From assembly GCA_016873715.1 (NCBI GenBank), contig VGWF01000047.1, positions 1-34,217 on the forward strand: DNA of 34,217 nucleotides, given 5' to 3'. Below are positions 3,610-34,217 of this stretch, piece by piece. The notes below the pieces were generated by a model. The model did not search any database. It saw only the letters and a list, made by a program, of their open reading frames with translations, and was not told where the DNA came from. Origin of the DNA: Lentisphaerota bacterium. Its GTDB lineage: Bacteria > Verrucomicrobiota > Kiritimatiellia > PWTM01. Numbering within the stretch: position 1 is the first letter of the stretch; every line of letters starts with the position of its first letter. The position numbers were made by a program, and so were the translations under genes.

Positions 3610-3637
3610 ACTGTACGCCGGCCGGCCGGCGGCGCAA
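3610..3637 (-). promoter_or_regulatory. Candidate pyrC promoter
   Basis: On the minus strand TTGCGC (3637-3632), 16 nt, TACAGT (3615-3610). Transcription would begin near 3604, leaving a short leader with GGGGGA before the ATG at 3590 and excluding the GTG at 3611 as a start. Confidence 0.4.
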
Positions 3638-3650
3638 AGGCGCGCGGTTG

Positions 3651-3818
3651 GATGTTCGGCGTCCGGCGTCAGATGTCCGGCGTCCGGCGTTGGATGTTCG
3701 ATGTTCGGTGTCGGGTGTTCGATGTTCGGCGTTGGGTGTTGGGCGTTGGATGTTGGGTGTTGGATGTTGGTGTTCGGTGTTCGGTGTTGGATGTTCGTTG
3801 TTCGGTGTTCGGCGTTCG
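3651..3818. repeat. Degenerate 7-bp tandem repeat, about 24 units
   Basis: Between the divergent pyrC and wzy-like promoters lies an array of about 24 heptamers that follow RRYGTYS on the plus strand (gatgttc, ggcgttg, ggtgttg, ggtgtcg and similar). The first 17 units keep one phase; a single-base shift follows, then the remaining units. The plus strand is rich in G and T, the minus strand in A and C. It is unlike the surrounding GC-rich DNA. The same heptamers occur in the opposite orientation inside the gene at 24297-27371. The array occupies most of the 273-bp gap; no gene is seen here. Confidence 0.85.
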
Positions 3819-6886: not shown

Positions 6887-6975
6887 GCCCCGCCGGGCGG
6901 CTTGTGGTCCGTCCGCCGCGGGGACCGAAGAACCGGGAAACCCGCGTACGGGGCAGCGCACACGAGGGCAGGACC

Positions 6976-8790
6976 ATGAGCGAGCTTGAGCAGGGCATCC
7001 GGCAGATCTGTGCCACGTTCCACAACGACAAGTCCCGCATGATGGACATCGTGCAGGCGGTCCAGGCGCGGTTCGGCTGCGTGTCGAGCGTGGCGCTGGA
7101 CCTGATCGCGAAGGCGGTCGGGACGGCGCGGGTGGAGGTCGAGAGCACGGTTTCCTTCTACACCTTCCTGACGGACCAGCCGAAGGGGAAGATCGTGATC
7201 CGTCTGTGCAGCGACGTGATCGACGAGATGTTCGGCATGGGTCCGGTGGCCAGGGCCTTCGAGGACGCGCTCGGCATCAAGGTCGGCCAGACAACGCCCG
7301 ACGGCGCGATCACGCTGGAGTGGACGGCCTGCATCGGCATGTGCGACCAGGCCCCGGCGGCGATCATCAACGACACGGTCGTCACGTACCTCTCGACCGA
7401 CAAGGCTCGGGAGATCGTGGCCGAGCTGCGCAAGAGCGGCGATCCGCGGAAGCTGGTCCACCGCCTCGGCGACGGGCACAACGCGCACCCGCTGGTCCGC
7501 TCGATGGTCCACAACAGCATCCGGCGCAAGGGACCGGTGGTTTTCGCCGACCTGCCCCCCGGCTCGGCCCTGCGCAAGGCGCTGGCGATGAGCCCGGTCG
7601 AGGTGATCCGCGACGTGAAGACCTCGCGCCTGCGCGGCCGCGGCGGCGCCGGCTTCCCGGCGGGCATGAAGTGGGAGTTCACGCGGCAATCCGAGGGCGA
7701 GCGCAAGATCGTCATCTGCAATGCGGACGAGGGCGAGCCCGGGACATTCAAGGACCGCGTGATCCTGACCGAGTACGCCGACCTGCTCTTCGAGGGCATG
7801 GCGATCGCCGGCTACGCGATCGGCGCGAAGGAGGGCATCCTCTACCTGCGCGGCGAGTACGCCTACATGCGCCCGCTGCTGGACCACATCCTGCAGGTCC
7901 GGCGCGACGCGGGCCTGCTGGGCCGCGAGGTGTGCGGCAAGCGCGGCTTCGACTTCGACATCCGCATCCAGCTCGGCGCCGGCGCCTACGTCTGCGGCGA
8001 GGAGACCTCGCTGATCTCGTCGTGCGAGGGCCTGCGCGGCGACCCGAAGAACCGTCCGCCGTTCCCGGCCCAGAAGGGCTACCTCGGCTGCCCGACGAGC
8101 GTGAACAACGTCGAGACCTACTGCTGCGTCGCGCGCATCCTCGACCGCGGCCCCGGGTGGTTCGCCGAGATCGGCAGCAAGGGCAGCCCGGGCACGAAGC
8201 TCTTCAGCGTCAGCGGCGACTGCGCCAGCCCCGGCGTCTACGAGTACCCGTTCGGCGTGAAGCTGATCGAGCTGCTGCGCGACGTCGGCGCCGAGGACGC
8301 CGCCGCGGTGCAGGTGGGCGGCCCCTCCGGCCACCTCGTCGGACCGGCGGACTACAACCGGTCGCTGGAGTACGACGACCTCGCCACCGGCGGCTCGATC
8401 GTGATCTTCAACAAGGACCGCAACGTCGTGCACGTGGTCCGCAAGTACCTCGAGTTCTTCGTCGAGGAAAGCTGCGGCTACTGCACGCCGTGCCGCGTGG
8501 GCAACGTGCTTCTGCTGCAGAAGATCGAGGACATCCTCCACGGCCGCGGCACCCCCGCGGACCTCGCCTACCTCGAGCAGCTCGCGAAGACCGTCAAGGT
8601 CACGAGCCGCTGCGGGCTCGGCCAGACCTCGCCGAACCCGGTGCTCTCCCTCCTCAAGAGCTTCCGCCCGGTGCTGGAGGCGCTCGTGAAGCCGCAGGCG
8701 GACGAGTTCCTGCCGACGTTCGACATCCGGGCGGCGCTGGGCTCGACGGAAGACCTGATCGGACGCAAGTCGGTGGTGTTCACCCCGTGA
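6976..8790 (+). CDS. hoxF: NAD-reducing [NiFe] hydrogenase, diaphorase subunit HoxF
   Basis: A 604-residue flavoprotein that passes electrons between NAD(H) and the hydrogenase. Residues 1-160 are a NuoE/HoxE-like thioredoxin-fold domain; the rest is NuoF-like. FMN/NAD sites are GRGGAGFPAGMKW (221-233), CNADEGEPGTFKD (248-260) and GAGAYVCGEE. The [4Fe-4S] ligands are Cys500, 503, 506 (ESCGYCTPC) and Cys546 (SRCGLG). In the N-terminal domain Cys78, Cys119 and Cys123 remain, but the second Cys of the usual C-x4-C is Asp, so the [2Fe-2S] cluster is probably absent, as in Ralstonia-type HoxF. A longer open frame reaches back to 6904, but the ATG at 6976 has AGGA upstream and begins a standard HoxF N-terminus. 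First gene of the operon; hoxU follows after 19 nt. Confidence 0.93.
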   Translation: MSELEQGIRQICATFHNDKSRMMDIVQAVQARFGCVSSVALDLIAKAVGTARVEVESTVSFYTFLTDQPKGKIVIRLCSDVIDEMFGMGPVARAFEDALGIKVGQTTPDGAITLEWTACIGMCDQAPAAIINDTVVTYLSTDKAREIVAELRKSGDPRKLVHRLGDGHNAHPLVRSMVHNSIRRKGPVVFADLPPGSALRKALAMSPVEVIRDVKTSRLRGRGGAGFPAGMKWEFTRQSEGERKIVICNADEGEPGTFKDRVILTEYADLLFEGMAIAGYAIGAKEGILYLRGEYAYMRPLLDHILQVRRDAGLLGREVCGKRGFDFDIRIQLGAGAYVCGEETSLISSCEGLRGDPKNRPPFPAQKGYLGCPTSVNNVETYCCVARILDRGPGWFAEIGSKGSPGTKLFSVSGDCASPGVYEYPFGVKLIELLRDVGAEDAAAVQVGGPSGHLVGPADYNRSLEYDDLATGGSIVIFNKDRNVVHVVRKYLEFFVEESCGYCTPCRVGNVLLLQKIEDILHGRGTPADLAYLEQLAKTVKVTSRCGLGQTSPNPVLSLLKSFRPVLEALVKPQADEFLPTFDIRAALGSTEDLIGRKSVVFTP

Positions 8791-8809
8791 CGCAGGAAAG
8801 GACCGAGCG

Positions 8810-9532
8810 ATGAGCGACACAATCCCCTTCACGATCGACGGCGTGGCGGTCGAGGGCCGGCCCGGCCAGACGATCCTCCAGGCGGCGGACGACGCCGGCA
8901 TCTACATCCCGCGCCTGTGCGCGCACAAGGAGCTGCATCCGTTCGGCTCCTGCCGCGTGTGCACGGTCAAGGTCAACGGCCGCCCGCAGAGCGCCTGCAC
9001 GATGCCCTGCGCCAAGGGCATGGTCGTCGAGAACAACACGCCGGAGCTGCTCGAGCACCGGCGCGGTCTCGTCGAGATGCTCTTCGTCGAGGGCAACCAC
9101 TACTGCATGTTCTGCGAGAAGAGCGGCAACTGCGAGCTGCAGGCCCTGGCCTACCGGCTCGGCATCATGGCCCCGCGCTACCCGTTCCAGTTCCCGGACC
9201 GGAACGTCGACGCGTCGCACCCGGACGTGCTGATCGACCGCAACCGCTGCATCCTCTGCGCGCGCTGCGTGCGGGCCTCGCACGACCTCGACGGCAAGAA
9301 CGTCTTCCAGTTCGTCGGCCGCGGGTCGAAGAAGCGCATCTGGATCAACGCCGAGGCGAAGCTGAAGGACACGAACCTCGACGTCACCGACAAGGCCGTC
9401 GAGATCTGCCCCGTCGGCGCGATTCTGAAGAAGCGGCAGGGGTACGCCGTCCCCGTCGGACAGCGGCTCTACGACCACCAGCCGATCGGATCGGACATCG
9501 AGGCGAAACGGGCGGCCGCCGCCCAGGCTTGA
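8810..9532 (+). CDS. hoxU: NAD-reducing hydrogenase, diaphorase subunit HoxU
   Basis: A 240-residue iron-sulfur subunit, related to the N-terminal part of NuoG, linking HoxF to the hydrogenase dimer. It contains a plant-ferredoxin-type [2Fe-2S] site (first Cys in PRLCAHKE, then GSCRVCTVK and SACTMP), the His-Cys3 [4Fe-4S] motif in GNHYCMFCEKSGNCELQ, and a further cluster motif DRNRCILCARCVR completed by EICPVGAI. This is the expected HoxU set. It starts behind GGAAAGG and is separated from hoxF by 19 nt and from hoxY by 13 nt. The size is normal for HoxU, not for a full-length NuoG, which argues against a respiratory complex I operon. Confidence 0.93.
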   Translation: MSDTIPFTIDGVAVEGRPGQTILQAADDAGIYIPRLCAHKELHPFGSCRVCTVKVNGRPQSACTMPCAKGMVVENNTPELLEHRRGLVEMLFVEGNHYCMFCEKSGNCELQALAYRLGIMAPRYPFQFPDRNVDASHPDVLIDRNRCILCARCVRASHDLDGKNVFQFVGRGSKKRIWINAEAKLKDTNLDVTDKAVEICPVGAILKKRQGYAVPVGQRLYDHQPIGSDIEAKRAAAAQA

Positions 9533-9545
9533 GGAGACACCGGCC

Positions 9546-10091
9546 ATGGCAAAACCCAAGGTTGCAACGGCATCGCTCGCGGGCTGCTTCGGCTGCCACA
9601 TGTCGATCCTGGACATCGACGAGCGCATCCTTCAGTTGATCGAGCTCGTCGACTTCGACAAGTCCCCCGTCGACGACATCAAGGAGTTCACCGGCCGCTG
9701 CGCCGTCGGCCTCATCGAGGGCGGCTGCTGCAACGAGGAAAACGTCCGCGTGCTGAAGGATTTCCGGAAGCACTGCGACATCCTGATCTCCGTCGGCGAA
9801 TGCGCGATCTGCGGCGGCATCCCCGCGATGCGCAACACGATCCCGCTGAAGGAGTGCATGGACGAGGCCTACCGGAACGGGCCGAGCGTCTACAACCCGA
9901 CGGGCGTCTACCCGAACGACCCGGCGCTGCCGCTGGTCCTCAACAAGGTCTACCCGTGCCACGAGGTGGTGAAGATCGATTACCACCTGCAGGGCTGCCC
10001 GCCCCCGGCGGACACGATCTGGCAGGCGCTGGTCGCCCTGCTGACGAACAAGCCGATGGACCTCCCCTACGAGCTGATCAAGTACGACTGA
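9546..10091 (+). CDS. hoxY: [NiFe] hydrogenase small subunit HoxY
   Basis: A 181-residue small subunit carrying the proximal [4Fe-4S] cluster. Ligand Cys are visible in GCFGCHMS (near residue 16), GECAICGG (near 84) and YPCHEVV/GCPPPAD (about 138-153). The CDILISVGECAICGGIPAMR and VEGGCCNEEN-like stretches match the group 3d small subunits. It is compact, with no Tat signal and no C-terminal cluster domain, as expected of a cytoplasmic bidirectional hydrogenase. A good GAGGAG Shine-Dalgarno precedes the ATG. It forms the hydrogenase heterodimer with HoxH, encoded 13 nt downstream. Confidence 0.93.
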   Translation: MAKPKVATASLAGCFGCHMSILDIDERILQLIELVDFDKSPVDDIKEFTGRCAVGLIEGGCCNEENVRVLKDFRKHCDILISVGECAICGGIPAMRNTIPLKECMDEAYRNGPSVYNPTGVYPNDPALPLVLNKVYPCHEVVKIDYHLQGCPPPADTIWQALVALLTNKPMDLPYELIKYD

Positions 10092-10104
10092 GCCGGAGAC
10101 GAAC

Positions 10105-11559
10105 ATGAGCCACGCTTCCTCCCCCAACATGATCGTGATCGAGCCGGTGACCCGCGTCGAGGGCCACGGCAAGGTGACCATCCAGCTCGACGACGAGCGC
10201 AAGGTCAAGCAGGCCCGGCTGCACATCGTCGAGTTCCGCGGCTTCGAGCGCTTCATCCACGGCCGGCCCTTCTGGGAGATCCCGGTCCTCGTGCAGCGCC
10301 TCTGCGGCATCTGCCCCGTCAGCCACCACCTCGCGGCGGCGAAGGCGATGGACCGCATCGTCGGCGGCGAGAACCTCACCCCGACGGCCGAGAAGATGCG
10401 CCGCCTGATGCACTACGGCCAGATGCTGCAGTCGCACGCGCTGCACTTCTTCCACCTGTGCTCGCCGGACTTCCTCTTCGGCTTCGACGCCGACCCCGCC
10501 ATCCGCAACGTGATCGGCGTCGCGAAGAAGTTCCCGGACCTCGCCGTGCAGGGCGTCATGCTCCGCAAGTACGGCCAGGAGATCATCAAGGCCACCGCCG
10601 GCAAGAAGATCCACGGCACGGGCGCGATCCCGGGCGGCGTGAACAAGAACCTCTCGATCGCCGAGCGCGACGTCTTCCTGAAGGACATCGAGCAGATCGT
10701 GGCGTGGTCCGTCGGCGCGCTGAAGGTCGCGAAGGACTACACGGCCGCGAACCTGAAGGAACTGGCCGACTTCGGCACGTTCGACTCGAACCACCTCTCG
10801 CTCGTCCGCGCGGACGGCGCCATGGACCTCTACCACGGCAACCTGCGCGCGATCGACGCGAAGGGGAAGAAGATCTTCGACCAGGTCGACTACCAGAACT
10901 ACCTCGACTACATCGTCGAGGAGGTGAAGCCCTGGTCCTACATGAAGTTCCCCTTCATCAAGTCCGTCGGCCCGGAGAACGGCTGGTACCGCGTCGGCCC
11001 GCTGTCGCGTGTCAACCTGTGCGACTTCATCCCGACGCCGATGGCCGAGGCGGAGCGCAAGCAGTTCATGGCGCTGACGAAGGGCGCCCCGAACAACATC
11101 ACGATGGCGTACCACTGGACCCGGATGATCGAACTGCTGCACTCGGCCGAGGTGATCCGCGACCTGCTCCACGACAAGGATCTCCAGGGCACGGACCTCG
11201 TCGTGAAGGGCGAGCGCCGCCGCGAGGCCGTCGGCCTGATCGAGGCGCCGCGCGGGACGCTGTTCCACCACTACATCGTCGACGACAACGACCAGATCGT
11301 CCGCTGCAACCTGATCGTGTCGACCACGAACAACAACACGCCGATGAACCGCGCGGTCGAGAAGGTCGCGAAGGACTACCTCAGCGGCGTCGAGGTGACC
11401 GAGGGGCTGCTGAACCGGGTCGAGATCGCGATCCGCGCGTACGATCCGTGCCTGTCCTGCGCGACGCACGCGATGGGGCAGATGCCGCTCGTGGTCGAGG
11501 TCGTGGACGCGGCGGGCAAGGTCGTCGGTCGCGGCGAGCGCGGAACGCGGATCGGCTGA
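10105..11559 (+). CDS. hoxH: [NiFe] hydrogenase large subunit HoxH
   Basis: A 484-residue catalytic subunit that binds the NiFe(CN)2CO centre. The four metal-ligand Cys are Cys67 and Cys70 (RLCGICPVSHH) and Cys449 and Cys452 (DPCLSCATHAMGQMPL). The precursor should be cut after His455, removing a 29-residue tail (456-484), presumably by HoxW encoded next door. The N-terminal DEPVTR-equivalent is IEPVTRVEGHGK. The sequence, including EFRGFERF and SYMKFPF, points to group 3d (NAD-coupled, bidirectional, cytoplasmic). None of the hypA-F genes needed to build the centre is in the window; they must lie elsewhere. Confidence 0.95.
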   Translation: MSHASSPNMIVIEPVTRVEGHGKVTIQLDDERKVKQARLHIVEFRGFERFIHGRPFWEIPVLVQRLCGICPVSHHLAAAKAMDRIVGGENLTPTAEKMRRLMHYGQMLQSHALHFFHLCSPDFLFGFDADPAIRNVIGVAKKFPDLAVQGVMLRKYGQEIIKATAGKKIHGTGAIPGGVNKNLSIAERDVFLKDIEQIVAWSVGALKVAKDYTAANLKELADFGTFDSNHLSLVRADGAMDLYHGNLRAIDAKGKKIFDQVDYQNYLDYIVEEVKPWSYMKFPFIKSVGPENGWYRVGPLSRVNLCDFIPTPMAEAERKQFMALTKGAPNNITMAYHWTRMIELLHSAEVIRDLLHDKDLQGTDLVVKGERRREAVGLIEAPRGTLFHHYIVDDNDQIVRCNLIVSTTNNNTPMNRAVEKVAKDYLSGVEVTEGLLNRVEIAIRAYDPCLSCATHAMGQMPLVVEVVDAAGKVVGRGERGTRIG

Positions 11560-11572
11560 GGCGGGCGGGGCG

Positions 11573-12088
11573 ATGGGCGCGCCGACCCGGTTCCTCGTGA
11601 TCGGCTACGGCAACCCGGGCCGGCTGGACGACGGGCTCGGGCCCGCGCTGGCCGAGGCCCTGGAAGCGCGGGCGATCCCGGGCGTGACGGTCGAGTCGGA
11701 CTACCAGCTCGTCGTCGAGGACGCCGCGCAGATCGCCGAGCACGACGTGGTGGTGTTCGCCGACGCCGCGGTCGAGGGACGGGAGCCGTTCCTGGTGCGT
11801 CGGGTCGGGACGAAGCCCGTGCAGGGACTCGGATCGCACACGATCGAGCCCGAGGCGCTGATGGGCCTGGCGCGGGACGCGTTCGGGGCGGAGACGCGGG
11901 GGTTCGCCCTCGGAATCCGGGGATACGAGTTCAACGAGTTTGGCGAGAGGCTGTCGGAGCGGGCGCGGCGGAATCTTGACGCGGCGCTCGAGTTCCTCGA
12001 AGCTCGCCTGAGAAGCGGAACGTTCGACGGGGTGGAGACAGACGGCGGCCCGGCCGCCGCGGAATCGGAAAGCGAGGAGATGCGATGA
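11573..12088 (+). CDS. hoxW: Hydrogenase maturation protease HoxW
   Basis: A 171-residue nickel-dependent endopeptidase of the HybD/HyaD/HoxW family that trims the C-terminus of the large subunit after metal insertion. It opens with VIGYGNPGRLDDGLGP; the expected nickel ligands are an acid at 19/20, Asp64 (VVFADAA) and His89 (GLGSHTIEP). The C-terminal 25 residues are acidic and Gly/Ala-rich and look disordered. It begins 13 nt after hoxH and its stop overlaps the next start as ATGA (12085-12088). Its presence in the operon supports HoxH being synthesised as a precursor. Confidence 0.9.
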   Translation: MGAPTRFLVIGYGNPGRLDDGLGPALAEALEARAIPGVTVESDYQLVVEDAAQIAEHDVVVFADAAVEGREPFLVRRVGTKPVQGLGSHTIEPEALMGLARDAFGAETRGFALGIRGYEFNEFGERLSERARRNLDAALEFLEARLRSGTFDGVETDGGPAAAESESEEMR

Positions 12089-18376: not shown

Positions 18377-18405
18377 GAAAGGACGTTGAAAAGGCCCGCG
18401 GATGG

Positions 18406-18438
18406 GCGGATCTCCGATTCATAGGACCGGAGATGCGC
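18406..18438. repeat. Short inverted repeat, internally deleted copy of the 70-bp module
   Basis: GCGGATCTCCG (18406-18416) and CGGAGATGCGC (18428-18438) flank only 11 nt. The full 70-bp copies at 24168-24237 and 33965-34034 have the same arms around 48 nt, so this copy appears to have lost about 37 nt from the middle. Confidence 0.65.
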
Positions 18439-18483
18439 CCCTCCGGCCATCACCCTATGCATGATCGGCGGTGGCCGCCCATA

Positions 18484-18562
18484 GTAGTCATCACGCTCCG
18501 CGTGATGACCATCCGGATTGCGGAGATGTCCTCACGGTCCTCACGCGGAGCGCGAGAACTAC
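18484..18562. repeat. BIME-like double hairpin, degenerate copy
   Basis: Begins GTAG and ends CTAC. The left hairpin is intact (arms GTCATCACGC and GCGTGATGAC, loop TCC). In the right hairpin a 9-bp segment (GTCCTCACG) is duplicated and the second arm has two changes, so it no longer pairs fully. It lies in the 356-bp gap between the flavin reductase and LTD/CotH genes; the gap holds only repeats, a terminator and a promoter. Orientation is the same as the copy at 34080-34149. Confidence 0.8.
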
Positions 18563-18635
18563 GTTGGCTCCCGCCCCCGGCCGTCACCCCGCGCAGGACC
18601 GGAGATGCGACCCCGCGGATCCGCCGACGTCGCGA

Positions 18636-19376: not shown

Positions 19377-22067
19377 TCAGAACGCGAGCGAGTACCGCCC
19401 GCCGGGGACGGTCTCGAACGCGCGGCGGCCGGCGCCGGCGTCGCGGACGGGCACGTCCCCGCCCTGCGCGTCCCGCACGGACCCCAGAGGCGAGGGCGCG
19501 CGGACGATGACCGCGCCCTTCTGCGTCGTGGCCAGCGTCGCCCCCGCGGGCTTGCCGCCGCGCCAGGCGGCGTCGACGGTCACCCCGCCGCGGGCCCGCA
19601 GGCCGCGGACGCTGCCCTGGCTCCACGCCGACGGCAGCGCCGGCAGCAGGTCGATTTCCGCCGCCACGCCCGTCCCGGCGGCGGGCACGAGCGACTGGAG
19701 CAGCATCTCGCAGACGCCCGCGCAGATGCCGTAGTTGCCGTCGAGCTGCATGGGCGGGTGGTTGCCGAAGAGGTTCGGAAGCGTGTTGTGCGCAAGCAGG
19801 TTCCGGATCATCTCGTGCGCGCGGTCGCCCTCGCGCAGGCGCGCCCAGAGCGCCGAGCGCCACGCCCAGGCCCATTCGCGCCGGCTGTCGCCGGAGGTTC
19901 CGCGCGCCTCGAGGGAGACGCGCGCGGCCTTCGCCCACTCCGGCGTGCGCTCGAAGGAGATCCAGCTTCCCGGGAAGACCGCGAAGAGATGCGACGTGTG
20001 CCGGTGCTGGTCCTTCGGATCGTCGCGGTCCTCCATCCACTCCTGCAACTGCCCCCAGCGGCCGACCTTCGGGCCGGCGAGCCGGTCGCGCAGCGCCACG
20101 ATCTTCCCGCGGAACTCCCGGTCCACGCCCAGGTCGTCGGCCATGCGCGCCGTGAACGTGAACAGTTCCCAGACGATCTGCTGGTCGTGCGCGACGCCGT
20201 CCTCCGTCGGCCCGTGCTCCGGCGACCAGCCGTTCGGCACCACCACCGTGCCGTCGGGCAGGGTCTTGAGGTGGTCGATCCAGAACTCGCAGACCTCCCT
20301 CGCCATCGGGTAGGCCGTGTCGCGCAGGAAGGCCTTGTCGCCGCCGAACGCGAACTGCTCCCAGAAGTGCAGCGCGTACCAGGCGCTCGACGGAAGGTTC
20401 CACTTCCAGCCGTGGCCGCCGAAGATGTTGTGCGACGTGCGGGCCGTCCATCCGCGCACCGTCCCGAACTCCGCCCGCGTCGCCACGCGGCTGGGCTCCC
20501 GCATCGCCATCACGAGGTCGAAGAACGGAAGCGCGCACTCGGCGAGATTCGCCGGTTCGGCGGGCCAGTAGTTCATCTGGACGTTGATGTTCGAGTGGTA
20601 GTCCGACGACCACGCCGGCTTGTTGCTGTCGTTCCAGAGGCCCTGCAGGTTGGCCGGAAGTCCCGGACGTCGCGACGAGGCCATCAGCAGGTAGCGTCCG
20701 TACTGGAAGAGAAGCGCCTCGAGCCCCGGATCGACTTCGCCCGCCTTGCAGCGTTCGAGCCTTCGGTCGGTCGGCAGCGCACGGACCTCATCCGGGCTCG
20801 CGCCCCACTCCACCGCCACGCGATCCATGAGCGCCCGGTGGTCCGCAACGTGCCGCGCAAGGAGCGCGTCGAACCCGCGCGCCGCGGCCGCATCGAGCTG
20901 CGCCGTCACGCGGGGGCCGGGCGCGGCGCCCCGCCAGCCGGCGGCGGCGTCCATCGCGTAGTCCGTGGCCGCCGCAAGCAGCAGCACCGCCCCGTCGCAG
21001 CCCGACAGCCGCACCGCGCCGTCCCGGACCTCGACCTTCCCGCCCCGGGCCAGCACGCGCACCCGCGCCTCGTACCTCAGCCCGTTCGGCAGCGCCCCGG
21101 CAAACGAAAGGCCGGACCCGTCCGCGGCCGCCGTCTCGTCGTGGGCGCCCTGGAGACGCAGCGTGCCGGTCACCGCGCCGGGCCGGTCCGCCGACCAGCG
21201 CAGCACGACGACCTGGTCGGGATGGCTCGCAAAGCTCTCGCGCAGGTGCACAGCCCCGCCGGAGCGGAACGTGACGCGGTGGACGCCGTCCGTCAGCGCC
21301 AGCGACCGCCCGTAGCCGTCCGGGGCCGGCTCCGCCGCGGCGGCGCCCGCGGACCCCGCGTCCCCGAGCCGGATCTCGCCGACCTGGAAATGCGAAACGC
21401 CGGGCGTGGGCTGGAACGTGAACCGGTAGGCGGAGAAGGCCGTCGCGTTCGTGAACGCATACGAGCGGGTCTCGTGGCGCCGGGCCCGCGGGGCCTCGCC
21501 GGCGCGCCGGTCGAGGACCGTCCATTCCACGCCGTCGGCCGATCCCGCCAGCTCCCAGGTGTGCGGATCCCGGAGCGGCGTGTCGTTCGCGCTGGTGAAG
21601 GCGTAGCGCGACACGGCCTCGGGGGCGGGGAGCTTGAGCAGCCAGACGACCGGCCGGCCGCGCGGCTCCACGCACCACTTGGTCTTCGGGTCGCCGTCGG
21701 ACGAGAACCCGACCGCCTCGCTGGGGTGGAAGGGCTCGTGGCCGCTGGGGCACGAGACCCCCGCCGGCGCCGCGGTTCCGGCGTCGAGATCCAGGAATAG
21801 GTCGCCGAAGTTCTGGTAGGCGCCCATCGTCTTGTAGTCGCCCGACGGGTTCAGGTCGCCGGTCCACAGGCTGTCCTCGTTGAACTGGACCCGCTCGCGC
21901 TCCACGCCGCCGAACACCATCGCGCCCAGGCGGCCGTTGCCGACGGGCAGCGCCTCGCCCGGCCACTTCCGGGCGGGACGGTCGTAGCGGAGCACCAGGT
22001 CGGCGGCCGGCGCGGAAACGGCCAGGCACGCGGGGAGTACGAGGCGGACGAGTTCCATGGCTCTCAT
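19377..22067 (-). CDS. GH95 alpha-L-fucosidase with inserted discoidin-like domain
   Basis: An 896-residue secreted enzyme (signal peptide to about residue 22) of glycoside hydrolase family 95, which removes alpha-L-fucose by inversion. Conserved blocks: LPVGNGRLGAMVFGGVERERVQFNEDSLWTG (40-70), YHSNINVQMNYWPAEPAN (the Asn pair of the active site), NGWSPEHGP (candidate general acid Glu) and DGNYGICAGVCEML (the Asp of the DGN motif). Between GDLFLDL (about 94) and YGRSLALTDG (about 252), inside the N-terminal domain, sits an extra 140-residue segment resembling an F5/8 type C (CBM32-like) carbohydrate-binding domain (YAFTSANDTP, WELAGSADGVEWT, YRFTF). The start at 22067 is chosen because a -10-like box overlaps the ATG at 22076; 22058 is possible. 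The sulfatase gene lies 128 nt upstream on the same strand. Confidence 0.88.
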   Translation of the reverse strand: MRAMELVRLVLPACLAVSAPAADLVLRYDRPARKWPGEALPVGNGRLGAMVFGGVERERVQFNEDSLWTGDLNPSGDYKTMGAYQNFGDLFLDLDAGTAAPAGVSCPSGHEPFHPSEAVGFSSDGDPKTKWCVEPRGRPVVWLLKLPAPEAVSRYAFTSANDTPLRDPHTWELAGSADGVEWTVLDRRAGEAPRARRHETRSYAFTNATAFSAYRFTFQPTPGVSHFQVGEIRLGDAGSAGAAAAEPAPDGYGRSLALTDGVHRVTFRSGGAVHLRESFASHPDQVVVLRWSADRPGAVTGTLRLQGAHDETAAADGSGLSFAGALPNGLRYEARVRVLARGGKVEVRDGAVRLSGCDGAVLLLAAATDYAMDAAAGWRGAAPGPRVTAQLDAAAARGFDALLARHVADHRALMDRVAVEWGASPDEVRALPTDRRLERCKAGEVDPGLEALLFQYGRYLLMASSRRPGLPANLQGLWNDSNKPAWSSDYHSNINVQMNYWPAEPANLAECALPFFDLVMAMREPSRVATRAEFGTVRGWTARTSHNIFGGHGWKWNLPSSAWYALHFWEQFAFGGDKAFLRDTAYPMAREVCEFWIDHLKTLPDGTVVVPNGWSPEHGPTEDGVAHDQQIVWELFTFTARMADDLGVDREFRGKIVALRDRLAGPKVGRWGQLQEWMEDRDDPKDQHRHTSHLFAVFPGSWISFERTPEWAKAARVSLEARGTSGDSRREWAWAWRSALWARLREGDRAHEMIRNLLAHNTLPNLFGNHPPMQLDGNYGICAGVCEMLLQSLVPAAGTGVAAEIDLLPALPSAWSQGSVRGLRARGGVTVDAAWRGGKPAGATLATTQKGAVIVRAPSPLGSVRDAQGGDVPVRDAGAGRRAFETVPGGRYSLAF

Positions 22068-22074
22068 GTCGCGC

Positions 22075-22103
22075 ATTCTCGGCGGAACCGCGTCCCGGGG
22101 GAA
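22075..22103 (-). promoter_or_regulatory. Possible promoter of the GH95 gene
   Basis: On the minus strand TTCCCC (22103-22098), 17 nt, GAGAAT (22080-22075), then 7 nt to the ATG at 22067. The -35 is poor; read-through from the sulfatase gene is an alternative. Confidence 0.25.
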
Positions 22104-22194
22104 GCCCGAATCCGGGGGGATGCGGTGGCCCTGGCCCTCGCCTCCCGGAGTCCCCCTGGGGTGTCCGCTGCCGCCGCCGTCGCCGCCCGCGGCC

Positions 22195-23682
22195 TCACCG
22201 GTCCGGCAGCGCCGCCTTCCAGCCGGCCTTGAGCAGCGCGGCCATCTCGGCCTTCGCCCCGGCATACGCGGGGTCGTCGACGACGTTCACCGTCTCCCAC
22301 GGGTCCTTCCCGAGGTCGAACAGCGCGGCGGGCATCTCGCCCTTCTTGAACTCCATGTAGCTGAACTTCGGCGTGCGCACGCCGTCGCCGTCCTCCGAAT
22401 CGCCCTCGCTGATGAACGCCGCCTTCTTCCACGGCCGCGACGGATCGGCGAACAGCGGTGCGAAGCTGACCCCTTCCTGCCCGCCCGGCGCCTTCACGCC
22501 GGCCAGCTCGCACAGCGTCGGGATGAAGTCGACGAACTCGACGATGCCCCCCGCCGCCTTCCCGTTGCCCGGGGCGCCGGGGACGCGGATCACCAGCGGC
22601 GCGCGGTGCGTGGGGGCGAGCATGGAGTACTTCGACCAGAACCCGTGGTCGCCGAGGTGGAAGCCGTGGTCGCCGAGGAAGACGACGATCGTGGACTTCG
22701 CCAGCCCGGTCTCCTCGAGCGCGTCGAGCATCATGCCGACGTGCGTGTCGACCATCGTGCAGCACGCGTAGTAGGCGGCGATCGCCTCGCGAGCCTGCTG
22801 CGGCGTCGGCTGCTTCTGCGTGAAGATGTCCGGGTTGCCCCCGGTCGCCCGCTTCATGTAGGGGAAGTTCTTCAGCGACGATACCGGGGCGGCCGGATCG
22901 GGGATCTTCGCCGGGTCGTACAGGTCGAGGAACTTCTTCGGCGCGGTCAGCGGGGTGTGCGGCTTCGACTGCGCGACGGAGAGGAAGAACCGCCGGCCGT
23001 TCTTCGCGTAGTCCTTGATCAGCGCGACGGCCGTGCAGGCCATCCGGTAGTCGCCATGGTCCTCGTGCGCCATGCCCGTGTCGCCGTAGCGATCGGAGTG
23101 GCGCCGCTTCCACTCGCGGTACTCGCGGCTCCTCTCATCCTTCGGGGCGGGATCGGGCTTCGGGTTCCGGGCCGGCGGGAACGTGAGGATCGGGTCCGGC
23201 CCCGTCCATCCCTGCGGCCGCTGGTAGTGCTCCAGCCGGTCGAAGGCCGCGTATTGCTTCTCGGCGTATTCGATCTTGTGGAACAGCTTCCCGATGTCGG
23301 AGAGGTGGAAGCCGCCGCCCTTCAGGATCTCCGGCAGCGTCAGCACGCCGGCCGGCAGGTGGTCGTCCATCACGTGCTGGTTCGACGTGATCCCGGTGGT
23401 CCGCGGGCGCAGGCCCGACAGGAACGAACTGCGGGAGGGATTGCACGCGATCCCCTGGACGTAGGCCGCGTCGAACCGGACCGCGCCCGCGCAGAACCGG
23501 TCGAGGTTCGGCGTCCTGCAGATCGTGTTTCCGTAGCAGCCGAGCGCCGACGCGTTGCAGTCCTCGATGTCGATCAGGAGGATGTTCATCCGGCTCGTGT
23601 CCGGAAGGCCGGCGGCCCCAGGTGCGCGGACGGCGGCACAAAGAAGGACGGCGGCACACAGCACGAACGCGATTCGCTTCAT
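22195..23682 (-). CDS. Secreted sulfatase, iduronate-2-sulfatase-like
   Basis: A 495-residue type I sulfatase with a signal peptide (to about residue 24). The C-x-P-S-R motif is CNPSRSSFLSG, with Cys80 to be oxidised to formylglycine by a separate maturase not in the window. Family landmarks: GCYGNTICRTPNLDRF (48-63), GDHGFHLGDHGFWSKYS (the Asp-His metal/sulfate ligands as in human iduronate sulfatase) and the C-terminal sub-domain with ALFDLGKDPWETVNV. At the N-terminal metal site the usual Asp-Asp is Glu40-Asp41 (LLIDIEDCN). It removes sulfate esters from a glycan. The neighbouring GH95 fucosidase suggests sulfated fucose-rich substrates, but this is inference. Confidence 0.88.
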   Translation of the reverse strand: MKRIAFVLCAAVLLCAAVRAPGAAGLPDTSRMNILLIDIEDCNASALGCYGNTICRTPNLDRFCAGAVRFDAAYVQGIACNPSRSSFLSGLRPRTTGITSNQHVMDDHLPAGVLTLPEILKGGGFHLSDIGKLFHKIEYAEKQYAAFDRLEHYQRPQGWTGPDPILTFPPARNPKPDPAPKDERSREYREWKRRHSDRYGDTGMAHEDHGDYRMACTAVALIKDYAKNGRRFFLSVAQSKPHTPLTAPKKFLDLYDPAKIPDPAAPVSSLKNFPYMKRATGGNPDIFTQKQPTPQQAREAIAAYYACCTMVDTHVGMMLDALEETGLAKSTIVVFLGDHGFHLGDHGFWSKYSMLAPTHRAPLVIRVPGAPGNGKAAGGIVEFVDFIPTLCELAGVKAPGGQEGVSFAPLFADPSRPWKKAAFISEGDSEDGDGVRTPKFSYMEFKKGEMPAALFDLGKDPWETVNVVDDPAYAGAKAEMAALLKAGWKAALPDR

Positions 23683-23731: not shown

Positions 23732-23801
23732 GACGCGCCGCGTCGGGCATTCCGGCGCATCTCCGGTCCTGCGAAGGGTGACGGCCGGGGGCGGGCGCAA
23801 A

Positions 23802-24122
23802 GTAGTCCTCACGCTCCGCGTGAGGACATCTCCGCAATCCGGATGGTCATCACGCGGACCGTGATGACTACCCTGCGGGGCCACCGCCGATCCTGCGCAG
23901 CGTGACGGCCAGGGGGAGGCGGGCGCAAAGTAGTCCTCACGCTCCGCGTGAGGACATCTCCGCAATCCGGATGGTCATCACGCGGAGCGTGATGACTACT
24001 ATGGGGGCCGCTGCCGATCCTGCGCGAGATGACGGCCGGGGGCGGGCGCAAAGTAGTCCTCACGCTCCGCGTGAGGACATCTCCGCAATCCGGATGGTCA
24101 TCGCGCGGAGCGTGATGACTAC
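23802..24122. repeat. Three tandem BIME-like double-hairpin elements
   Basis: Three 70-bp units (23802-23871, 23930-23999, 24053-24122), each starting GTAG and ending CTAC, separated by similar 53-58-bp spacers. Each unit has a left hairpin (arms GTCCTCACGC and GCGTGAGGAC, loop TCC), an 18-nt linker containing ATCCGGAT, and a right hairpin (arms GTCATCACGC and GCGTGATGAC, loop GGA). Unit 1 has one arm change; unit 3 has an A-to-G change that could still form a G-U pair. The array fills most of the 614-bp gap between the divergent sulfatase gene and the gene at 24297. A part-copy of the 70-bp module arm (GCGCATCTCCGGTCC) precedes it at about 23755. Confidence 0.9.
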
Positions 24123-24167
24123 CCTGCGGGGCCACCGCGGATCCTGCGCGGGGTGATGGCCGGAGGG

Positions 24168-24237
24168 GCGCATCTCCGGTCCCGTGCAGCGATGACGAAG
24201 GCGCCCGCAGGATCGGGCCCGTGAATCGGAGATGCGC
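24168..24237. repeat. 70-bp inverted-repeat module (copy 1)
   Basis: Arms GCGCATCTCCG (24168-24178) and CGGAGATGCGC (24227-24237) are perfect inverted repeats around a 48-nt middle. The whole element recurs as its reverse complement at 33965-34034. It sits about 45 nt after the BIME array and 59 nt before the start of the gene at 24297. Confidence 0.8.
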
Positions 24238-24296
24238 GCCGGGGCATTCCGGCGCCGGTTGACGGACGGGCGCGGGGCGTGCGAAGTGTTGTGGCC

Positions 24297-27200
24297 ATGA
24301 AGCTGACCCTGGCCGTGGCGGGGATCCTGGCCGTAGCGGGCGGATCCCGGGCGCTGACGCTGGAATCCGGCCCGGCCCGCATGACGCTGGACCCCGACAC
24401 CGGGGCGATCGTCTCCGTCGCGGAGGCGGACAGGGACGGCGCGATCCTCCGGGGCGGCGAGGACGGGGCGTGGTCGCTTGCGTTCCGCGACGGATCCACG
24501 CTGGCGGCCTCGTCCTTCCACGCGACGAACGCCTCCCGGCGTGTCGCGGTGCGGCCGGGCGCGGACGGCCGCTCGGCCGACCTCGCCTTCGAGTCCGCTG
24601 AAGCCCGCGTGACCGTCTTCGTGCGGCCCTCCGATTCCGGATTCGACCTCACCGCCGCCGTCGCGCCGGGTACCGGCACGGTCCTGGAACTCGCGCTGCC
24701 CGGACGCCTGCGGTTCGCGCCGGCGGACGTGAAGCGCTTCGTCGCGCCGTTGGATCCGCACAAGGGCGTCGGCGTCGCCTTCAACGGCGGATTCTTCGCC
24801 CGCCAGCCGGCGGACCGCCCCGCCGCTTGGGCACCCGAGCCGTCGCCGGGCCGCGGCATCACGATGATCCTGCCTTCGGGCCCGCGGATGCTGCCCCTCG
24901 ACGCGCCGCCGGTCGCGTTGCGCGCGACACCGGAGGGCGTCCGCATCCTCGGCACGAACCTCGCCGCGCGCTTCGGACGCGCGCGGGCCGAGGTCCACCG
25001 CCCGCCGCCCCCGGGCCAGGCCCCGGCCGTGCTGGTGGACTCCGACGCCGGGCCCCTCCTCTGCGCCCACCCGGTCGGCGACGGGTTCCTGTGGCGGCTG
25101 ACCGGCCGGCTGGAGGAGCGCGACGCGGGGCTCGTCCGCGACGCCGTCACGCGGATCCTCCGCGATGCCTCCGCGTCAACGCCCGGCCGCCGCCGCATCG
25201 CGCTGGTCTCGGTCCGTAACGGCCCGGAGGCCGGCGCCTTCACGAGCCTTTCCGTCGCGCAGTGGCGCGAAACGCTCGAGCGCGCCGCGCGGGAGATGAA
25301 CTGCGGGTTCGCCGAGCTGCCGACCGCCCAGGCCATCACCGATGCGGTGCGCGGCCAGGGCGACCTCGCGATCGTCAATCCGTACGGCGAGTGGCTCCCG
25401 GTCGCCGCGGACGACACGCTGACGAACGCCGTCGCGGCCGTCGCCCGGCACGTCCGCGCGGGCGGCCGCTGGTTCGAAACGGGCGGCTATCCCTTTCACG
25501 CCGCGCTCCGGCCCTCCGAGTTCCTCCGGTGCGAGAGCACGTACCCGCCGGTGTTCGCGGACTTCGTCCACCTGGAATCCGCCGCGGGCCGCGCCGCCGT
25601 TCACCGGGTGCAGCCGCGGACCTGGGCGCCGTGGGCCGGCGCGGGGAATCCCGCCGCGATCCTGATCCCCGGCCGGCTGGGTTTCGGAGGCGACGGGGGC
25701 GGCGGCCGGCTCGACCGCTCGTTCGCGGCCTTCGTTCCGCCCGGCGTTGCCTGGACCAGCCCGGTCGTCCGCATCGCGGTCGGCGGCTCCGCCGAGGCGG
25801 GCCTGGCCGCGTACGCCGCCGCCAACGGCATCGACCGCCCGCTGCGCGCGAAGATGAAGCCGGACGTCCTCGACCGCCTCCGCCGCGCGGTGCTGCTCAA
25901 GATCCACGGCGGCGCCCGCGACATCGCCGCGGCTCTCCCCCGCCTGCCGTCGCCGGCGATCCTGCACAGCTCGGGCTACCTGAAGGGCGGGTTCGACAAG
26001 GAGTACCCCGACCACCTGCCGCCCAACGCCGGGTTCGGAACGCAGGAGGAGATGCGCGAACTGCACGCGAAGGCGCGGGCCGCCGGCCACCTCGTGATGC
26101 CCTACACGAACCCGACCTGGTGGTGCGACCATCCGCGCGGGCCGACCTTCCTCGCGGCCGGGGAGGCGCCGCTCTCCGTCGGGCCCGACGGGAAGCCGTA
26201 CCGCGAGCGTTACTCGGACAACGACGGCTGGACCACCTGCTTCTGGCACCCGGCGGTGCGCTCGGCCAACCGCGAACTGCGGCGGCAGTTCCTGGAGGAC
26301 GTGCCGGTGGACATCCTCTTCCAGGACCAGGTCGGCGCGCGGCCGTGGCGCTGGGACTTCAACCCCGCCGCCCCGCGGCCGCACGCGTACGCGGAGGGGC
26401 TGCTGTCGCAGGCCGACGAGGACGCCGCGCTCGCGCCGCTGGGCACCGAGGACGGCTGGGACCGCGCCGCGCAGGTCGAGTCGATGCTCTGCGGCTTCAC
26501 CTTCACGCTCGTTCCCGGCCGCCGCCCGGCGTGGGCGCAGCCGTTCCGCATCACCTACCCGCCCGACACGTGGGAGCTCTGGCCGCTGGCGCAGCGCCTC
26601 GCCCACGACAAGTGCGCGTTCTACCACCACGACCTCGGCAAGTTCGTCGTGACGCCCTCCGACATGGCGTGGACGCTCGGCCTCGGCTTCAACATGAGCT
26701 ACTCGATGGCCGCGGGCGCCGCCTCCGACGCGCAGGTCATGGGCTGGCTCGCGTGGCTCGACCGGATCCAGAAGTCCGTCTGCGCCCGCTACACCGGCGA
26801 GCCCGTCGCCGCCTTCACCCACACCCGGGCGGGGGCGAACGCCGAACATCGAACGCTGAACATCGAACACCGAAGTGCGGACTCAACAGCCAACAGCCAA
26901 CAACCACCAACCAACACCCAATCCTCGTCGACCCTCGCCCCTCGTCCCCCGCCCCTTCCCGACGATGGCCTGATCCGGGCGCAGTACGGGTCCGTGAAGA
27001 TCGTCGCGAACCTCGGCCCGGATCCGCGCGAGGTCGACGGCCGCACCCTGCCCGGCTTCGGCTTCCGCGCGGCGGCGCCGGGGATGACGGCCGGCGTCCT
27101 GCAGCCGCCGCCGGGCGCGGCGGCGACGAACCCCGCGGCCTTCGTGGTGGAGGTGTCGTCCGGCCGCGCCGATGCGTGGTTCTTCGGATCTCCCGGCGCG

Positions 27201-27371
27201 GACGCCGCCGCCGACCTGCCCGCCGGCTTCGTTCCCGCCGCCGTCATCTTCGACGGCCGCGAGCCTGTTCCTGCGAGTCCCGGAGACGGCACCCTCCGTC
27301 TCACGCTCCCCCCCGCCCCCGGCGCCACGCCGCGCCTCTGGCACGCCACGCTCGTCCCCGCACCGGGATGA
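24297..27371 (+). CDS. Large secreted protein, possible glycosidase (DUF6259-like)
   Basis: A 1024-residue exported protein (signal peptide MKLTLAVAGILAVAGG to about 20). The first 500 residues look like a beta-rich super-sandwich. The middle (about 510-845) looks like a TIM-barrel catalytic region: AVLLKIHGG, LPNAGFGTQEEMRELHAKA, MPYTNPTWWCDHP, VPVDILFQDQVGARPWRWDFN (candidate catalytic Asp) and YHHDLGKFVVTPSDMAWTLG. It resembles the DUF6259 proteins of Verrucomicrobia, which are likely glycosidases, but I cannot name a family with certainty. Residues about 847-887 are encoded by a heptamer-repeat insertion that keeps the frame; the C-terminal beta domain resumes at GLIRAQYGSVKIVANLG. The ATG at 24297 is preferred over a GTG at 24279 because it begins the signal peptide directly. 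Confidence 0.7.
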   Translation: MKLTLAVAGILAVAGGSRALTLESGPARMTLDPDTGAIVSVAEADRDGAILRGGEDGAWSLAFRDGSTLAASSFHATNASRRVAVRPGADGRSADLAFESAEARVTVFVRPSDSGFDLTAAVAPGTGTVLELALPGRLRFAPADVKRFVAPLDPHKGVGVAFNGGFFARQPADRPAAWAPEPSPGRGITMILPSGPRMLPLDAPPVALRATPEGVRILGTNLAARFGRARAEVHRPPPPGQAPAVLVDSDAGPLLCAHPVGDGFLWRLTGRLEERDAGLVRDAVTRILRDASASTPGRRRIALVSVRNGPEAGAFTSLSVAQWRETLERAAREMNCGFAELPTAQAITDAVRGQGDLAIVNPYGEWLPVAADDTLTNAVAAVARHVRAGGRWFETGGYPFHAALRPSEFLRCESTYPPVFADFVHLESAAGRAAVHRVQPRTWAPWAGAGNPAAILIPGRLGFGGDGGGGRLDRSFAAFVPPGVAWTSPVVRIAVGGSAEAGLAAYAAANGIDRPLRAKMKPDVLDRLRRAVLLKIHGGARDIAAALPRLPSPAILHSSGYLKGGFDKEYPDHLPPNAGFGTQEEMRELHAKARAAGHLVMPYTNPTWWCDHPRGPTFLAAGEAPLSVGPDGKPYRERYSDNDGWTTCFWHPAVRSANRELRRQFLEDVPVDILFQDQVGARPWRWDFNPAAPRPHAYAEGLLSQADEDAALAPLGTEDGWDRAAQVESMLCGFTFTLVPGRRPAWAQPFRITYPPDTWELWPLAQRLAHDKCAFYHHDLGKFVVTPSDMAWTLGLGFNMSYSMAAGAASDAQVMGWLAWLDRIQKSVCARYTGEPVAAFTHTRAGANAEHRTLNIEHRSADSTANSQQPPTNTQSSSTLAPRPPPLPDDGLIRAQYGSVKIVANLGPDPREVDGRTLPGFGFRAAAPGMTAGVLQPPPGAAATNPAAFVVEVSSGRADAWFFGSPGADAAADLPAGFVPAAVIFDGREPVPASPGDGTLRLTLPPAPGATPRLWHATLVPAPG
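26836..26957. repeat. Heptamer-repeat insertion inside a coding gene
   Basis: Period-7 sequence in the coding strand: cgaacgc, cgaacat, cgaacgc, tgaacat, cgaacac, then aacagcc-type and ccctcgt-type heptamers. The first five units are the reverse complement of units in the array at 3651-3818. It encodes a low-complexity Asn/Gln/Ser/Pro-rich linker of about 41 residues between the barrel and the C-terminal domain, with no stop codon or frameshift. Codon use here is unlike the rest of the gene. Confidence 0.8.
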
Positions 27372-33941: not shown

Positions 33942-33964
33942 GGACGCCCAAGCCGGCGCGTCGG

Positions 33965-34034
33965 GCGCATCTCCGATTCGTGGACCCGATCGTGCGGGCG
34001 CCTTCGTCATCGCTGCACAGGACCGGAGATGCGC
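33965..34034. repeat. 70-bp inverted-repeat module (copy 2, inverted)
   Basis: Arms GCGCATCTCCG (33965-33975) and CGGAGATGCGC (34024-34034) around 48 nt. The element is close to the reverse complement of the copy at 24168-24237, including the middle (GGCGCCTTCGTCATCGCTGC here). Confidence 0.8.
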
Positions 34035-34079
34035 CCCTCCGGCCGTCACCCCGCGCAGGATCGGCGGTGGCTCCGCAGG

Positions 34080-34149
34080 GTAGTCATCACGCTCCGCGTG
34101 ATGACCATCCGGATTACGGAGATGTCCTCACGCGGAGCGTGAGGACTAC
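34080..34149. repeat. BIME-like double hairpin, continuing past the window
   Basis: A complete 70-bp unit in the opposite orientation to the 23.8-kb array: GTAG, hairpin with loop TCC, linker, hairpin with loop GGA, CTAC. After a 58-nt spacer like those at 23.9 kb, a further GTAGTC begins at 34208, so another unit or a junction follows beyond the window edge. The final AAAA does not match the other copies. Confidence 0.85.
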
Positions 34150-34217
34150 TTTGCGCCCGCCTCCCCCTGGCCGTCACGCTGAGCAGGACCGGCAGCGGCC
34201 CTGCATAGTAGTCAAAA

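Follow-up and report, generated by a model that had tools for sequence, protein, structure and literature searches.

How REP sequences are dispersed remains a matter of debate, and REPs occur in some genomes with no RAYT gene next to them. The question is raised here by five paired hairpins, each arm headed by GTAG, which lie in a stretch of 34,217 nucleotides from a Lentisphaerota bacterium (contig VGWF01000047.1 of assembly GCA_016873715.1; this whole stretch is called the window below). Are these pairs mobile REP units in their own right, or do they travel inside something larger? The genome to which the window belongs amounts to 5.13 Mb in 289 contigs, is 97.6% complete and is apparently a member of the class Kiritimatiellia.

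Paired GTAG hairpins in the window and in the genome

All five units listed in a preliminary description of this DNA are present, and each has, as described there, a GTAG 5' of the hairpin on both strands; the stem is 9 bp long and the loop is TCC. The length of 70 bp that had been given for all of them holds for four (REP pairs 1 to 3 and the pair of element C, Table 1), but the fifth (18484-18562) measures 79 bp, with a spacer longer by 9 bases. The genome consensus pair reads GTAG-TCCTCACGC-TCC-GCGTGAGGA, a spacer of 20 bp, then TCATCACGC-GGA-GCGTGATGA-CTAC, and REP pair 2 matches it exactly. The window hairpin is denoted the GTAGTCMTCACGC hairpin, its single-stranded form being GTAGTCMTCACGCTCCGCGTGAKGA. 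One more GTAGTC begins at 34208 in element C, immediately before the contig end. No Rfam match was found in the window, so that an RNA family is not supported.

A scan of the whole genome with the hairpin pattern gave 157+159 strand matches, compared with 0 in the reversed control, which excludes chance; as a hairpin is matched once on each strand, these matches amount to about 160 hairpins. Direct reading of the fetched loci yielded 167 hairpins, namely 82 GTAG-outward pairs and 3 singles. The pairs are nearly always heterodimeric, made of one CC-type and one CA-type arm. A GTAG head is present in 66/82 CC arms and 77/82 CA arms (the remaining heads are mostly GTGG), and the spacer is 20 bp in 73/82 pairs. 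At 18 loci, 2 to 5 pairs form a tandem array, all in the same orientation, with a spacing that is normally 110 or 122-129 bp (two exceptions have gaps of 162-163 bp) and is 128 and 123 bp in the array of element B. The GTAG REP/BIME anatomy proposed earlier is borne out by these inverted, heterodimeric, high-copy pairs in a Verrucomicrobiota genome, and with about 167 hairpins in some 80 pairs the repeat is not limited to a few copies. It has the GTAG foot, the inverted pairing with a variable spacer, the high copy number and the mostly extragenic location of REPs and REPINs and, as in BIMEs, the REPs alternate in orientation and are often reiterated. One REP property was not found: a pair that moves alone has flanks unrelated between copies, and here the flanks are conserved over 50 and 117 bp.

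In alignments of the loci, identity is 98% for the hairpins, 84% for the spacer and 86-88% for the MITE flanks described below; aligned identities are preferred because ungapped column conservation underestimates the flanks. Among the 167 hairpins a paired stem change occurs at one position only (C-G versus A-T) and the other positions hardly vary, which indicates a constraint on the sequence and not merely on folding. Compensatory stem changes, put forward earlier as a mark of selection on the folded form, are not demonstrated by this single position, and the complementarity of the TCC and GGA loops, read in the same sense, is automatic from the inverted orientation. Judged from the sequences, the hairpins are more constrained than the remaining element and something apparently still reads them. 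This constraint could stem from a RAYT acting in trans, from another DNA-binding or host protein, or from gene conversion.

The pairs lie inside a MITE-like element

The repeated sequence exceeds the 70-bp unit. It runs outward for 50 bp on the CC side, to GGGCGCATCTCCGG (left), and for 117 bp on the CA side, to CGGAGATGCGCCC (right), and both boundaries are sharp at most loci. The whole is a non-coding MITE-like element with a consensus of ~237 bp and terminal inverted repeats of ~14 bp, GGGCGCATCTCCGR...YCGGAGATGCGCCC. At 43 of the 45 core loci the pair, or an array of 2-5 pairs, lies within such an element, and arrays are always enclosed by one single pair of terminal repeats. Only two core copies are without MITE ends: one is a degenerate pair (C29:4738), which came to light in a 400-kb control sample, the other a single arm (C6:2019). 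They suggest that the core has existed, or at times still exists, on its own. The window holds three of these elements, called A, B and C (Table 1); element A ends with GGGCGGATCTCCGA at 18404 and, on the minus strand, with GTCGCATCTCCGG from 18611.

Table 1. Positions of MITE-like elements, REP pairs and target-site duplications in the window
Feature	Positions	Strand	Remark
9-bp target-site duplication CCCGCGGAT, low side of element A	18395..18403	.	
MITE-like element A	18404..18611	-	one REP pair; right part shortened
GTAG hairpin, CA-type arm, element A	18484..18508	+	
GTAG hairpin, CC-type arm (mutated), element A	18538..18562	-	spacer 29 bp versus the usual 20
9-bp target-site duplication CCCGCGGAT, high side of element A	18612..18620	.	
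9-bp target-site duplication GGGCATTCC, left of element B	23745..23753	.	
MITE-like element B	23754..24241	+	single terminal-repeat pair around a three-REP-pair array
REP pair 1 of element B array	23802..23871	+	hairpins 23802-23826 + and 23847-23871 -
REP pair 2 of element B array	23930..23999	+	hairpins 23930-23954 + and 23975-23999 -
REP pair 3 of element B array	24053..24122	+	hairpins 24053-24077 + and 24098-24122 -
Element B right end module	24166..24241	+	resembles a stand-alone 74-bp core-less MITE elsewhere in the genome
9-bp target-site duplication GGGCATTCC, right of element B	24242..24250	.	
MITE-like element C	33963..34217	-	array truncated at the contig end; terminal repeat of the right side, GGGCGCATCTCCGA, at 33963
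REP pair of element C	34080..34149	-	hairpins 34080-34104 + and 34125-34149 -

The target-site duplications are 9 bp long. They match at 9/9 positions in 11 of the 25 two-ended copies and at ≥8/9 in 16/25. When the left flank of one copy was paired with the right flank of another, in 1000 shuffles with the boundary shift allowed equally, exact matches had a mean of 0.035 (maximum 1) and matches at ≥8/9 a mean of 0.63 (maximum 4). Terminal repeats together with 9-bp duplications imply insertion by a staggered double-strand cut. Staggered double-strand cuts are the action of DDE transposases, whereas target-site duplications would not be expected from a Y1 (HUH) transposase. The idea that the pair itself is the mobile REP unit is not supported, as the copies bear MITE ends and 9-bp target-site duplications.

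The ends also occur without the core, and with another one. Two core-less copies of 74 bp have the same ends and exact 9-bp duplications (L149, CTTCCAAGG; L151, ACATGATTC), and a core-less copy of 127 bp (L150, of a class of about 127-130 bp) has the exact 9-bp duplication CGCCGGTCC. Elements of ~201-226 bp share the MITE ends, and most of them hold a second GTAG pair, arranged tail-to-tail, of sequence GGCCGGGCC-AGC-GGCCCGGCC-CTAC..GTAG-GGCCGGGCC-GCT-GGCCCGGCC (loci L152, L155, L157, L158, L159, L160, L162 and L167); L166 and L150 have matching sequence without this insert. By comparison with these two pair-free copies, the tail-to-tail pair is bordered by the 7-bp direct repeat CGAACGG. The last ~74 bp of the element are missing at about 12 core loci (L026, L099 and about ten others). 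At two shortened loci a 9-bp duplication persists close to ...GACGGC or ...GGCCGGC, which suggests that the right end can also lie elsewhere. A 47-bp piece that corresponds to the left end of the element, with no REP pair and with an imperfect 9-bp duplication, was observed at L163:3941-3987 (G000:C53).

Position relative to genes

With gene orientation taken from a heuristic G+C-frame gene call, 17/33 loci lie between divergent genes (22/100 for control gaps taken from this genome; Fisher p 0.002) and 1/33 between convergent genes (20/100 for the controls; Fisher p 0.025). In other genomes, most REPs are situated between genes that converge or run in the same direction (PMC3733652). The excess between divergent genes fits MITE insertion and not REP behaviour. 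The preliminary description places the copies of the window only between genes; these copies and most of the loci are indeed intergenic, but 9/43 loci overlap a frame of the same G+C-frame call.

The same ends and the same hairpin in related genomes

Two of 97 relatives carry the window hairpin, G095 (37+43 strand matches) and G013 (4+3); they represent one other family of the same class, and the exact MITE end sequence is absent from both. A sample of 388 genomes of the phylum added merely scattered or variant hairpin copies. The G095 genome has about 12 RAYT matches (loci L057-L069), most of them flanked by a GTAG or GGAG hairpin family of their own, which makes it a rich case for RAYT-REP co-evolution.

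Exact MITE ends were found in two further families of the class, represented by G054 (17+17 sites) and G024 (2+2). The G054 copies are 123 bp long, with exact 9-bp duplications in 13/16, and their core is the outward pair GTAGGCCGGGGCTCTGTCCCCGGC / GTAGGCCGACCCTCTGCGGTCGGC, that is GTAGGCCGGGG..CCCCGGC / GCCGACC..GGTCGGCCTAC. The G024 copies are 113 bp long, and their core, GTAGAGCCGAT..ATCGGC, is an outward pair with a GTAG that is clear on one side only. At least four different GTAG REP or REP-like pairs are found in this MITE family, across three bacterial families. G054 also has a RAYT gene (L230:1499-2032; 98 bits, NF047646) flanked by REPs with a GTAGGCCG head and a CTCYG loop. These REPs are found outside the MITE as well as in it; since they occur both in the MITE and around the RAYT gene, the REP family of the MITE-borne pair in G054 has its own RAYT. 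Together with the occurrence of the window hairpin in G095 apart from these MITE ends, this speaks for the REP nature of the cores. A cognate RAYT flanked by the same REP was found for this sister core and not for the window core.

RAYT genes and the search for a transposase

The presence of a RAYT gene elsewhere in the genome, which the preliminary description had predicted, was confirmed: there are at least five RAYT-like genes (on contigs C170, C147, C11, C117 and C35), besides more distant Y1 genes (C8, C13 and C27). Six loci, L035 (C170), L036 (C147), L038 (C117), L039 (C35), L037 (C11) and L001 (C27), illustrate that one genome holds at least six Y1/RAYT-like genes. Those on C170, C147, C117, C35 and C27 are surrounded by dense repeats of their own, and copies of a short GGAG-type palindrome lie near that on C11. 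The foot of these repeats, read from the sequence, is GTAG at C117 and GGAG at C147, C170, C35 and C11; the GTAG hairpins among which the C117 RAYT stands differ in sequence from those of the window. The RAYT gene at L039/L040 (G000:C35:33355-34054) is expanded or broken by its own repeat, its C-terminal part being duplicated 2-3 times.

The prediction that a RAYT gene would be flanked by the window hairpins was not borne out. No such gene was found by searches with PF01797 and NF047646 and by a hairpin scan of loci L001-L004 and L035-L045, an absence that is not final in an assembly of 289 contigs. Searching with the MITE end sequence revealed no autonomous element in this genome, in the 97 relatives or in the species-wide genome collection; in this genome, the exact end sequences that could be placed belong only to short elements or isolated matches. 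DDE_Tnp_1, the DDE family searched, has no member in this genome or in G054.

How the pairs have spread

We consider it very probable that the REP pairs were captured by a MITE and spread as its cargo, so that the MITE, and not the pair, is the mobile unit. A DDE-type transposase supplied in trans would insert the MITE with a 9-bp target-site duplication; a REP pair would have been captured by the MITE and then multiplied in tandem inside some copies, and the hairpins would have changed very little as the remaining sequence of the element drifted. We infer the DDE transposase, this order of events and the cause of the hairpin conservation. MITE transposition alone does not explain that conservation. 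Both the arrays and the nearly fixed hairpins would be accounted for if a DDE enzyme spread the MITE and, in trans, a RAYT such as that of C117 copied or converted the pair inside existing copies. This two-layer model refines the MITE-cargo explanation and does not exclude it; the excess of hairpin identity over that of spacer and flanks is in its favour, as are the arrays, always within one pair of ends, and the GTAG with which the REPs of the C117 RAYT, of other sequence, also begin. We nevertheless regard it as rather unlikely, since there is neither an empty site for the window core nor any direct sign of REP insertion into the MITE, and purifying selection or ordinary gene conversion would give the same picture. 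A class-wide partnership, in which a DDE-type MITE repeatedly takes up GTAG REP pairs and RAYT-type recognition keeps the hairpins intact, can be proposed only tentatively. If it were true, REPs could disperse without a transposase of their own close by.

Other explanations dispense with MITE cargo. The hairpins might be an intrinsic part of the MITE and not REPs, for instance two-way transcription terminators or insulators under selection. They are strong, and the bias towards divergent gaps, with a single locus in a convergent one, could be read in this sense; yet core-less MITEs occur, different GTAG pairs lie within the same MITE ends, the same hairpin is present without the MITE in G095, and selection on a terminator would preserve structure and not exact sequence, all of which make this improbable. 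It is very improbable that the pairs are an ordinary REPIN or BIME population, with a RAYT recognising the GTAG hairpin and the similarity of the flanks being secondary. Such a population would have the GTAG ends, inverted heterodimers and tandem arrays seen here, in a genome with RAYT genes; its conserved ends and variable spacer are also the pattern of the identities given above, and two copies do lie outside MITE ends. The window hairpins, however, are at no RAYT locus, and MITE-derived flanks surround the core at 43/45 loci; at many of these the MITE ends are bordered by 9-bp duplications. Finally, the terminal repeats could belong to a Y1 transposase system, a RAYT flanked by terminal inverted repeats or 'TIRtron', the 9-bp duplications having another origin. 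RAYT genes with long flanking terminal inverted repeats have been described (PMC3733652), and one Y1/IS200-like gene of the present genome is flanked by repeats; against this, exact 9-bp duplications are found in three genomes and no RAYT gene was found flanked by GGGCGCATCTCCG, and we hold it to be extremely improbable.

Relation to known repeats

GTAG REPs were already known in Verrucomicrobia, where Opitutus terrae has several families (Di Nocera et al., 2013; PMC3733652). The present pairs resemble GTAG REP families in their GTAG foot, short perfect stem, short loop, pairing with GTAG outside, heterodimers, arrays and verrucomicrobial host; they differ in that the pair lies inside terminal inverted repeats with 9-bp duplications, often occurs where the neighbouring genes diverge, and is not accompanied by a RAYT (PMC3733652). 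REP pairs within longer palindromes have been reported in three species, with no mechanism given (PMC3733652). The nearest precedents are GTAG-15 of Anabaena variabilis and CGTC-1 of Halothiobacillus neapolitanus, with pairs in an outer palindrome common to many copies; REP-free outer palindromes were not found there, nor were target duplications described (PMC3733652, section 7). In contrast, core-less copies and 9-bp duplications mark the outer part as a MITE here, and the same ends enclose different pairs.

As in REPINs, a REP doublet in inverted orientation has a variable spacer and strongly conserved ends, but REPINs are thought to be moved by a RAYT (Bertels and Rainey, 2011; PMC3116915), whereas the dispersed unit here is the surrounding MITE. 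That MITE has the features of bacterial DDE-type non-autonomous MITEs, being short and non-coding, with terminal inverted repeats, a duplication of fixed length (9 bp) and core-less relatives; unlike the usual bacterial MITEs, it has GTAG REP pairs as cargo, expanded in tandem. REP-targeting insertion sequences likewise associate a transposon type physically with REPs, but there the insertion sequence inserts into the REP (PMC1525189), whereas here the REP pair is inside the MITE. No earlier report of REP pairs as MITE cargo with target duplications was found in the literature searched, subscription papers being mostly outside it. The route of spreading would be legible in the DNA, with REP pairs as MITE cargo and 9-bp duplications as the mark of insertion, and a repeated REP pair need not be the product of a RAYT. 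The recurrent association of a single MITE family with different REP pairs, whose hairpins are better conserved than their surroundings, allows tests of what spreads REPs and of what preserves them.

Neighbouring genes and other repeats in the window

The genes at 19377-23682 and 24297-27371 encode a family GH95 glycosidase, a sulfatase and a DUF6259 protein. Element B occupies a short stretch that separates the sulfatase gene from the DUF6259 gene; as these two genes diverge, their promoters must be within the MITE or adjacent to it. At 6904-12088, a group of genes encoding NuoE/NuoF-like domains and a NiFe hydrogenase large subunit has the look of a cluster for a bidirectional NAD-linked hydrogenase. 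Tandem repeats of the type TGTTCGGTGTTGGATGTT, imperfect in sequence, occur at 3632-3818 and 26835-26882 of the window and at about 2380-2500 of L004; present in several places of the genome, they apparently form a separate repeat family.
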